From NCBI RefSeq assembly GCF_022539665.2, contig NC_081331.1, positions 10,199,534-10,263,533 on the forward strand: a DNA stretch of 64,000 nucleotides, read 5' to 3'. Numbering within the stretch: position 1 is the stretch's first letter; every line of letters begins with the position of its first letter. This stretch comes from Daphnia carinata (lineage: Eukaryota > Arthropoda > Branchiopoda > Diplostraca > Daphniidae). Position numbers and translations under genes: made by a program. The notes under the pieces are model-generated. The model was given only the letters and a program-made list of their open reading frames with translations. It had not been told where the DNA came from and made no database searches. Below are positions 5,658-8,676 of this stretch, piece by piece.

Positions 5658-5663
5658 TTTATT
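5658..5663 (-). promoter_or_regulatory. Polyadenylation signal AATAAA for the selenoprotein H gene
   Basis: AATAAA on the minus strand, about 395 nt past the TAA stop at 6059-6057 and downstream of the candidate SECIS. It would give a 3' UTR long enough to contain the SECIS. Inferred from position only. Confidence 0.45.
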
Positions 5664-5824: not shown

Positions 5825-5910
5825 CGGACGAAAAAGGCAAAAACATCAGGACATGGAAGATTTGTTAATTAAAAAATTTTTACTCTCACGCCTTCATAAA
5901 CCTTTTACTC
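5825..5910 (-). promoter_or_regulatory. Candidate SECIS element in the 3' UTR
   Basis: SECIS elements recruit SBP2 and the Sec-specific elongation factor so that UGA is read as selenocysteine. The element lies about 150 nt past the stop codon and has the expected parts in order on the minus strand. Helix I is AAAAGG (5906-5901) with CCTTTT (5837-5832). An internal loop follows. The non-Watson-Crick quartet is ATGA (5897-5894) opposite TGAT (5848-5845). Helix II is GGCGTG (5892-5887) with CATG-T-CC (one bulged T), and a few weaker pairs extend it. An unpaired AAAAA begins 12 nt after the ATGA, where family elements carry their conserved apical A residues. The apical loop is AT-rich and longer than usual. 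Pairing was done by eye. Confidence 0.65.
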
Positions 5911-6056: not shown

Positions 6057-8676
6057 TTAAGCTAGGGCTTCCTTTAAGCCAGCAATCAAAGAATTAGGAT
6101 CCGGAAATTTGAGACGTCGTGGCGGACCACGCTTAATTCCGCTCCATAATATAGTCTCTGAAAAACAAGATCAAATATAGGTATGTGACCTTTTGGGCAA
6201 CCCCAGCTAATCTAAACGAAAATTGCCATACCGACACCATGGGAATTGGTCACTATGATTTCGAACGCCCCCCTACGCGGAGCCGAAACATTCATTTCCA
6301 CCACCAGGTCAGCGCAATGTTGGAGGAACAGCTCTTGAATTTCAAGAGCCTTCCTCTTGAATACGGATCAGGATTTGCTATGCCATAACCACACTATCAC
6401 GGACAACCTTTCATGCAAACGAAAGTAAGGTATGGTGGCACTTACCAATGTTCCATTGCGACCCGCGATGAAGCGCGAGGCTTCTTCATGTTGCCATTGT
6501 CATTATTTTCTCCTTCAGAATCCTACGGAAACGAAGGTTCAATATTAATTTTTATACTAAACGTGGAAACTGGAAAACAAACTGACCCGTTTTTTTGCAC
6601 GCGCCCATCTCGTCGATGCCCCTTTTTTACCAGCAGCTGACAGTTTCTCGTGTGTGCTTGGTTCGTCTTCCTCCGATTCACCCGCGGAATTCTTTATACC
6701 AATAACCAATTTAAAAAAACAGACCGACATATAGACTCCTTAACTAAAAAACTTGCTTGTTGTTGCTGAGCGTGTGCCTTTCGTGTCGCTGCTGCCTTTC
6801 TCCCCGCCTCGACCCTAATTTTATGCAATCGGGCAGCTTTTTCATCTTCATTCTCGTCACCCTCTTCTTCTTCAGCCGAACCCTTGGAAGAAAAATTTAA
6901 TGAAAGATGGCTCATTATCTGTGAATTACCATACGATGTTATACCTCGCCCTTTTCGCGAGCCCATCGGGCTGAGGCTCCTTTTTTGCCGATTGCCGACA
7001 ATTGTTCGTGTAAAACCGCATCGGCCTCTTCGTCCGACTGCACTCCAGGATCCTATTGAGAAATAATCTTCCATTAGAATGTACTTCTCAACTGGATACA
7101 TGATATTTAAAAATAAACCTGCTCCTTCAGCCGTTGCTTACGTGTCGCCATTGATTTCTTTCCTGCTTGTACTCTGATCTCATGCATCCGGGCTTCCTTC
7201 TCGTCTTCGTCTTCTTCTTGTTCTTCACCCTCACCCTGATCGCCGCCCTTAACATAAAGATACGGAATTAGGCATACATTACTCGATACAATGATATCGC
7301 CATTGATTTCGCAAATTAGACGCTGACTAATTAACGTCAATATTTACACCGTCATGCTTACTTGTCCTTTGTCGTACGACCATCTCGCTGCTGCGCCTTT
7401 CTTACCGATGGCTGACAACTGGTCGTGCAGGACTGCGTCAGCCTCTTCATCCGACTGTATTCCAGGATCCTTAAAAAAAAAAAATGTTTTCTGTTTAAGC
7501 AAACCTATTGGATTTGAATCTTCCAAGTTGGTAACCTGTTCTCTGATATGTTGTTTTCTTGTTGCAATTGCTTTCTTCCCTGCTTCTACTCTGATATTGT
7601 GCAACCGTGCTTCTTTATCCTCTTCTCCTTGATTCTCTTCCTCCCCCCCATTGTCCTTTTCAAGTAAAAAAAAAATGGTAAGTAAGAACTGGTACAGTAT
7701 GCTCCCATGATTGTTTTCGAAAGTGAAAGACCAAAGGAGGGAGGATACTGCGATGGTCAACCTACCTCATCGTTGTCCCGCGACCATCTAGCTGAAGCTC
7801 CTTTTTTACCGATGGCTGATAACTGATCGTGTAAGACAGTGTCTGCGTCTTTGTCTGATTTGACGTTAGGATCCTACCAAAAGTAAGATTATGGAATTAT
7901 AAGTCCAACCTTCTGCTATAAATACTATACAAACCTGTTCTTTAATGTGAGCCTTTCTTGTTGCAATTGCTTTCTTCCCTGCTTCCACTCTTATTTTATG
8001 CATCCGATCTTCTTTATTTTCTCCTTCTCCTTCCTCTTCTCCTTCCTCTTCAAAATTTTCTTCTTCTTCCACAGGTTCCTCTTGAAATTCCTCTTTATAC
8101 GCTTCTTTGTCATCTTCATTTTCTTCGTTCATTTCATAGTCTGGATCAGGACCCTTGCAAAGAATACCAACATTACCAATAAGCACAAAATTACAAGCAA
8201 TTGGTAAATCCAATGCTGAACTCACTCCTTCTTGTTCTTGTCTTTCTTTTGACCACCTCACTGAGGCACCCTTCTTGCCAGCTGACGCAAGTTTTTTGTG
8301 AGTGCTAGGTTCTACATGTTTCCCTCCTGATTCCTGCTATAGAACAAAACATTGCAATTGTTGGTAGTAATAAATGAAGGTCACCATTTCTACTAACCTT
8401 TTTGCTTTTATCAAACTTCATTGTTTTCTCTTTTTCTTCTTCATCAGCCATTTCTTCAAGTTGTTTCACCTTTGTGTCCTTTCCTTTTGGTTTAGCAGCA
8501 ACCAATTTAGCTTTTGCCGCAGCCCCAGCAAGGGGTGGTTTTCCGTTTGAAGATTTTGATTGTTCGGAATTCCAGGATTTCGATTCTGGGATAACATCTT
8601 CAATTATATCATCTGCTCGGATGGCATCCGCAGCTTTCTTCTCTGCAACTTCTGCAGCACGTCTTCGCTGGGACAT
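6057..8676 (-). CDS. Selenoprotein H family protein with nine-module N-terminal repeat array; Sec encoded by in-frame TGA
   Basis: Thirteen exons: 8676-8398, 8336-8226, 8153-7935, 7873-7766, 7655-7536, 7469-7362, 7247-7119, 7052-6945, 6882-6757, 6691-6587, 6522-6446, 6377-6232 and 6157-6057, giving 578 residues. Exons 11-13 (residues 472-578) match selenoprotein H (BthD in flies). EHCKSUSVFKRKA carries the CxxU redox motif with Sec at residue 500 (TGA 6370-6368). It is followed by PRRGAFEIIV and LWSGIKRGPPRRLKFPDP. The last two match human SelH without gaps if the donor at 6232/6231 is used. SelH is a thioredoxin-fold, nucleolar, DNA-binding redox protein of about 120-250 residues in the forms I know, so this one is far longer. 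Exon 1 (residues 1-93) is basic and Ala/Lys-rich, and residues 94-471 are the repeat array. An upstream in-frame ATG at 8703 would add nine residues; 8676 has the better context. Ordinary gene prediction would stop at the TGA or skip this exon. Confidence 0.88.
6587..8336 (-). repeat. Array of alternating A and B protein modules, one per exon
   Basis: Nine consecutive phase-0 exons encode two related modules in strict alternation A-B-A-B-A-B-A-B-A. A modules (exons 2, 4, 6, 8, 10; 35-37 residues) share H-x2-L-x-A-x-GKKGA-x2-RW; a typical core is LHDQLSAIGKKGASARWS. B modules (exons 3, 5, 7, 9; 40-73 residues) have an acidic Glu/Asp-rich lead and then a core like RMHKIRVEAGKKAIATRK. Both reduce to H-x(2-3)-[LI]-[RS]-x2-G-[KR]-K-[GAS]-x2-[AT]-R-[WK], so A and B probably descend from one module. 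The GKKG core resembles bacterial and plant KGG stress-repeat motifs, but I cannot assign a family. Confidence 0.85.
6692..6756 (-). other. Non-canonical GC-AG intron
   Basis: Intron 9 of the selenoprotein H gene begins GCAAGT rather than GTAAGT and ends AAAG. Using it makes exon 9 exactly 126 nt and phase 0 like its sister exons. The nearest GT (6752-6751) would break phase. GC donors with otherwise perfect consensus are the known minor class of U2 introns. Confidence 0.75.

Follow-up and report, generated by a model that had tools for sequence, protein, structure and literature searches.

Does a locus in which a selenoprotein H (SelH) domain follows a long array of repeated modules encode one selenoprotein or two neighboring products, and what could such an array do for a redox domain? 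We addressed these questions in Daphnia carinata, within a 64-kb stretch of contig C1 (10199534-10263533), hereafter called the window. On its minus strand, 13 exons join into a single spliced frame running from the ATG at 8676 to the TAA at 6057. In order, the frame encodes a charged leader, nine modules that each occupy one exon and alternate between two types, and a C-terminal SelH domain. The product consists of 577 or 578 residues (about 64 kDa for 577 residues), depending on the choice of one acceptor at exon 2. The acceptor three bases upstream (ATAG/CAG, the slash marking the splice site) adds one glutamine, giving 578 residues with 471 before the SelH part; these are the lengths given in a preliminary description of this DNA. 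Eleven of the 12 introns are of the GT-AG type, and the exon-9 donor is of the GC-AG type (CAA/GCAAGT). The intron phases are consistent, the first ten being 0 and the last two 2 and 1. Since introns 1-10 are all in phase 0, exons 2-10 are all symmetric cassettes. The sole in-frame stop before the TAA is a TGA at 6368-6370. A protein search with the translated gene identified LOC130692579 isoform X2 from D. carinata (P0001, 496 amino acids, 100% identity) and the hypothetical protein GHT06_009482 from Daphnia sinensis (P0002, 501 amino acids, 88% identity by BLASTP). The features of the locus are as follows.

8398..8676, minus strand: exon 1, opening with the start codon and encoding a charged leader of 93 residues (net +4); identical in P0001
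8226..8333, minus strand: exon 2, type A module 1, core THKKLASAGKKGASVRW; P0001 fits an exon from 8336 (acceptor 3 nt upstream)
7935..8153, minus strand: exon 3, type B module 1 (MHKIRVEAGKKAIATRKAHIK) and a long acidic stretch
7766..7873, minus strand: exon 4, type A module 2
7536..7655, minus strand: exon 5, type B module 2
7362..7469, minus strand: exon 6, type A module 3
7119..7247, minus strand: exon 7, type B module 3
6945..7052, minus strand: exon 8, type A module 4
6757..6882, minus strand: exon 9 with a GC donor, type B module 4; same splice in P0001 and P0002 (QQQQ/NSAGE)
6587..6691, minus strand: exon 10, type A module 5
6446..6522, minus strand: exon 11, junction exon shared by P0001 and P0002; it encodes the acidic linker DSEGENNDNGN followed by MKKPRASSRVAMEH and ends two bases into the cysteine codon of CxxU
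6232..6377, minus strand: exon 12, the Sec exon, CKSU and the first part of the SelH domain
6368..6370, minus strand: Sec codon TGA; the corresponding residue is where the D. sinensis model stops
6057..6157, minus strand: exon 13, end of the SelH domain (WSGIKRGPPRRLKFPDP) and TAA stop
5833..5905, minus strand: 3'-UTR element resembling a SECIS, with AUGA, UGAU and an apical AAA; 20.1 bits against an Rfam gathering threshold of 35
5658..5663, minus strand: poly(A) signal AATAAA, 394 nt past the stop; the previous AATAAA on the strand lies inside exon 3 (8018)

The C-terminal domain had been described as SelH with a CKSU motif encoded through TGA, and the profile searches bear this out. The whole protein matched the Pfam family Rdx (PF10262) with 30.3 bits (cut-off 22.6) and the NCBIfam family SelT/W/H (TIGR02174) with 45.1 bits (cut-off 34.2), and the TGA lies in frame. 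Both profiles cover SelT, SelW, and SelH alike, and the domain is presumably SelH by its nearest relatives and by the SelH signature. The active site, EHC-K-S-U, is built from exons 11 and 12. Searching the genome with the SelH domain (E ≤ 10) gave two matches, both of them exons of this gene, which leaves one SelH in the genome. The Rdx profile matched two other places in the whole genome, on contigs C5 (over the cut-off) and C6 (under it), and missed the present locus because the domain is split across exons. A protein search with the SelH domain returned 21 relatives, 17 of which we inspected. Among the relatives, the D. pulex fragment DAPPUDRAFT_52874 (P0003) starts two residues after the Sec position, and a metagenomic sequence (P0008) is an open frame of 116 amino acids with its own methionine and no modules. 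The predicted structure of P0008 (mean pLDDT of 68.2 from 13 sequences) has the order β-α-β-β-β-α and places the CxxU where the first helix begins. Compared with the PDB, this model had no match at E 0.001 (best 3.7e-3); titles in 13 of the best 22 rows were SelW-related or selenium-binding, and mouse SelW ranked 36th. The SelH sequence itself found one weak match among the sequences of solved structures (E 0.24).

The domain thus shares with SELENOH (SelH/BthD in Drosophila) of the Rdx family the thioredoxin-like Rdx domain, the CxxU motif, a UGA at the Sec position, and a 3' SECIS-like element. Whereas SELENOH is given as a 14 kDa protein in the accessible part of its description (PMC10650576), the domain here terminates a 577-residue protein with a nine-module array. 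The long product therefore lacks the small size typical of SELENOH (~14 kDa), which only an additional short form would have. Ahead of the CxxU lies a basic stretch, KKPRASSR, which differs from RKRK. No AT-hook was reported at E ≤ 10, in a scan that drops most matches above ~0.1 and for a motif that is short.

Why has the SelH domain been missing from the public gene models? P0001 agrees letter for letter with the 578-residue version over all its 496 residues, and both P0001 and P0002 extend from the leader through the complete set of nine modules into the junction exon 11. P0002 ends with MEHCKS, precisely where D. carinata has the Sec TGA in a comparison at the protein level. P0001 ends with MEH: splicing of exon 11 to exon 13 gives TG/AG, an immediate TGA. 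This end matches skipping of the Sec exon (6232-6377) with removal of SelH, so at least one predicted isoform lacks the domain. Both entries are without SelH because their models stop at the Sec position or shortly ahead of it. The gene is apparently a well-formed but misannotated selenoprotein gene.

The ends of both database proteins, at or before the TGA position, could also be taken at face value, with the TGA as a true stop, the SelH exons as a decayed remnant, and the module array alone as the protein. We consider this reading extremely improbable. The residues downstream of the TGA are intact, with 75% identity to D. pulex P0003, the frame contains no further internal stop, and both a SECIS-like element and a tRNA-Sec gene are present.

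The SECIS-like element lies 388 nt downstream of the TGA in the message, as calculated from the coordinates, and matched the SECIS_1 model (RF00031) with a canonical AUGA/AAA/UGAU core at 20.1 bits, below the Rfam gathering threshold. When three stretches (29 kb) were searched to E 10, this match alone was listed, on the correct strand, with the score corresponding to an E of ~5 to 6 in that search. A crude SECIS pattern run over both strands of the window found five sites that were equal or better, this one included; at that density, one site in the 457-nt UTR is a ~2% event. The element is no more stable in folding than shuffled sequences on its strand (z of -0.43), and its minimum-energy structure has two helices flanking the core. 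Over the whole genome, SECIS_1 gave no match at E ≤ 10 with 133 of 1946 candidates scored, the search being too wide for such a short model. The genome carries a tRNA-Sec gene, scoring 63.8 bits (cut-off 47), at C9:5510145-5510247 (L021). Together, these observations support Sec insertion via a 3'-UTR SECIS, short of proof.

The tRNA-Sec gene is 103 nt long compared with the 91 positions of the model and has extra bases after the TCA anticodon, which suggests an intron. The available portion of a report on D. pulex also describes a tRNA-Sec gene with an intron (PMC5330540). The tRNA-Sec model had 34 matches in total, of which 25 share a score of 40.2 bits, under the cut-off, and are all located on contig C2 (247603-275436, 365021-365101, and 402682-425669). 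Many of them are ~1.1 kb apart, so they apparently form a tandem tRNA array.

We next consider whether the array and SelH belong to one gene. Fusion of SelH to a nine-module exon-encoded array had been proposed from the DNA alone; the proposal agrees with the 13 exons in one frame and with the models of two species that reach exon 11. We are confident, if not certain, that the array and SelH form one fused gene product, and a single transcript across both is supported without being proven. Between exon 10 and the SelH exons there is neither an AATAAA nor an ATTAAA; the array itself contains the ATTAAA variant, at 7946 and 6901.

The junction also holds elements that a separate SelH gene could use. 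The 64-nt intron 10 (6523-6586) contains TATAAAAA, starting 34 nt upstream of exon 11, and the in-frame ATG at 6489 is preceded by AAC, with an A at position -3. Two transcription units, partly merged by gene prediction, could accordingly be imagined: one for the modules, spanning exons 1-10 or 1-11, and one for a short SelH that begins at ATG 6489 and is driven by a separate promoter within exon 10 or intron 10. The module-free P0008 with its own methionine is in line with such a short gene, although this open frame is possibly not the whole gene. We regard two units as distinctly unlikely, as both database models pass the junction in frame, no poly(A) signal of either kind separates the two parts, and D. 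sinensis retains, at the protein level, the acidic linker that lies upstream of ATG 6489. Furthermore, a transcript starting near exon 11 would meet two out-of-frame ATGs (6503 and 6497) ahead of 6489. The intron-10 element and the in-frame ATG nevertheless suggest that a short SelH may also be made besides the fused product.

The fusion layout is found in two Daphnia species, of which D. sinensis belongs to the D. similis group, and the exon-11 linker differs between them by a one-residue in-frame indel. Two array-based protein searches, covering proteins of 0.55-1.75 times the query length, found no species beyond D. carinata and D. sinensis; one of them scored the 7991 candidates sharing most words. 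In the open-access literature available to us, which excludes subscription papers and bioRxiv, we found no SelH fusion in Daphnia or elsewhere. The accessible part of a study on algae describes fusions of SELENOM and of GST with MSRA (PMC7539508).

The nine modules fall into two alternating types, type A in exons 2, 4, 6, 8, and 10 and type B in exons 3, 5, 7, and 9. Type A has the core H(D/E/K)(Q/K)L(S/A)(A/S)(I/A)GKKGAxxRW and type B the core (M/L)HxIRVxAG(K/R)KxxATRK. The repeats can also be traced in the DNA, where a 117-nt unit and a 108-nt unit each occur three times; agreement with the reference copy is 72-73% for the former and 72-80% for the latter. Both types seem to be confined to this gene: a type A and type B pair searched against the whole genome (108 Mb, 106 contigs; E ≤ 0.001) gave seven matches and the full protein 13, all at this locus. 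The copies differ mostly at silent sites, synonymous differences being near saturation with few amino-acid changes. The pooled pS and pN are 0.76 and 0.14 for the whole exons 4, 6, and 8, 0.81 and 0.15 for the type A cores, and 0.74 and 0.19 for the type B cores, which fits old duplicates under purifying selection. With the GKK columns held fixed, the remaining columns of A and B outscore all but ~1% of 20000 column permutations, and a common ancestor of both types is likely on this comparison, if not firm.

The modules had been called basic with acidic linkers. This holds at the level of the parts: with each core delimited at eight residues N-terminal and 12 residues C-terminal of the G in GKK/GRK, the cores carry a net charge of +2 to +6 in nine of nine modules, and the preceding linkers one of -1 to -23, again in nine of nine. 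It does not hold for the array as a whole, as residues 1-471 are acidic overall (pI 5.19), the cores being their only basic part. The array is also very hydrophilic, with a GRAVY of -1.47. The 577 residues contain nine S/TxxD/E sites, e.g., SDEE in exons 6 and 8, and no serine clusters.

We modeled the array with AlphaFold2 from two sequences only. The mean pLDDT was 56.5, with 162 of 496 residues at 70 or above and 227 below 50. The model places one long helix in each type B exon and, in the type A exons 4, 6, and 8, two helices parted near the GKK. Taken in blocks of ten across exons 3-8, pLDDT is ~71-87 for the long helix and for the first of the two type A helices, and ~53-62 or less for the second, which is weak; the type A exons 2 and 10 are low. 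A helical nature of several modules is hence supported by the model, but not proven. The fold search of this model against solved structures gave no match at E < 0.001, the best of 13 matches at E ≤ 10 having an E of 2.7.

The array is without an accepted Pfam family or family name, in line with the preliminary description, which knew no name for this architecture, and no DNA-binding family was reported in the Pfam scan of the protein. Matches to the array below the Pfam cut-offs included DUF6732, RPC5, KGG, and DUF3027. The only one over its cut-off was TIM21 (PF08294), with 27.9 bits in the whole protein against 24.1; TIM21 is also the precomputed domain of P0001 and P0002. We rejected this assignment, short of proof, for two reasons. 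The match covers only positions 50-120 of the 145 in the profile, three times over the modules, and one module alone reached 13.8 bits and a 113-residue piece 20.5 bits, both under the cut-off. Our reading is that a resemblance has been multiplied by repetition. A reversed version of the 113-residue piece had no TIM21 match, so that composition alone is an insufficient explanation.

Daphnia make drought-resistant eggs. The modules could then be stress hydrophilins like LEA group 1 or KGG proteins, and the fusion an antioxidant of the desiccation stage instead of a nuclear scaffold. The GKKG motif recurs in the array, its hydrophilicity is of the expected kind, and a weak KGG match (14.6 bits over 11 residues) appeared in one of the four module pieces scanned. 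The group 1 motif in the accessible text of PMC8946055 also contains QL and GRK. The families have in common a GKKG/GRKG core in short hydrophilic repeats (KGG, PF10685; LEA group 1, PF00477), whereas the Daphnia units have a greater length, alternate between two types, and are each encoded by an exon. The 14.6 bits, however, are below the KGG cut-off of 20.4, and a reversed control produced a chance match of similar strength (PGA2, 15 bits). The KGG profile had no match in the whole genome, and PF00477 (LEA_5) was not reported in the Pfam scans of the protein and of the module pieces. We therefore consider a stress-hydrophilin origin very unlikely.

A prokaryotic or viral origin of the modules was also tried and rejected. 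A pattern scan of genome contigs confirmed no relative among 154 pattern matches, most of which came from patterns in the linkers, and viral scans with SelH and with the P0001/P0002 alignment confirmed none either. Comparing the exon 10-11 piece of P0002 with viral contigs pointed to two related phage contigs (L032:4650-5096 and L033:4650-5072), which encode a protein (148 amino acids in L032) whose C-terminal part includes EARKEAGKKGASARW, a stretch similar to the type A core. These contigs were picked through the pattern KKGASARW itself, and the match spans only 24-28 residues. The phage protein had no Pfam match at E ≤ 1, and its EARKEAGKKGASARW stretch is probably a convergent basic tail.

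What might the array do for SelH? From the charge pattern and the published data on SelH, we infer that the modules may bind nucleic acid or chromatin. The accessible parts of two reports describe SELENOH as a nucleolar, DNA-binding protein with an AT-hook (PMC10650576) and SELH deficiency as lowering Pol I occupancy on rDNA (PMC8985259). The closest parallel for the array is offered by treacle (TCOF1) and Nopp140 (NOLC1), nucleolar proteins with alternating acidic and basic regions according to the available sections of PMC7957619 and PMC7197718. For treacle, PMC7957619 gives 11 repeats, encoded by exons 6A-16, with an alternation of basic and acidic regions and with CK2 sites. In common with the Daphnia protein, as far as those sections go, is a central alternating acidic/basic array over consecutive exons with some CK2-type sites. 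Unlike them, the Daphnia protein has no SRP40_C, LisH, or Treacle match (Pfam, E ≤ 10), its array lacks serine clusters, and its modules are predicted to be partly helical. On this comparison, the Daphnia protein stands outside the treacle/Nopp140 family and may work like one of its members. The genome has its own Nopp140 candidate in a separate gene, with an SRP40_C domain of 77.4 bits at C4:9000956-9001102 (L029).

We propose the following model. One gene would give one long selenoprotein, whose CKSU active site would be produced by reading the TGA as Sec under the control of the 3'-UTR SECIS. The leader and nine modules, with basic cores and acidic linkers on one phase-0 exon each, would serve as a multivalent scaffold. 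The array would make repeated contacts with histones, nucleic acid, or charged partners and so anchor the redox domain on a chromatin or nucleolar surface, much as treacle and Nopp140 are thought to do. The C-terminal thioredoxin-like SelH would then protect or redox-regulate whatever the array binds. The nuclear or nucleolar location, the multivalent binding, and the substrate are deduced from these likenesses. Taken as a whole, mechanism included, this proposal is tentative, and we put its chances a little short of even.

The UGA might in addition act as a selenium-gated switch. With selenium, the scaffold would carry its redox domain; without it, through termination at the UGA, or through skipping of the Sec exon, the complete scaffold would be made alone. 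We find such a switch rather unlikely. If it were true, the selenium supply would set the redox-active fraction of a nucleolar/chromatin scaffold.

SelH is a poorly understood nucleolar redox selenoprotein, and its natural fusion to a scaffold hints at the site where the domain acts. The Daphnia fusion would provide a tractable animal system for testing that site of action. The locus also illustrates how the catalytic portion of a protein can be concealed by gene models in which UGA is treated as a stop: the public entries of two species present an uncharacterized or hypothetical protein without its most recognizable domain.
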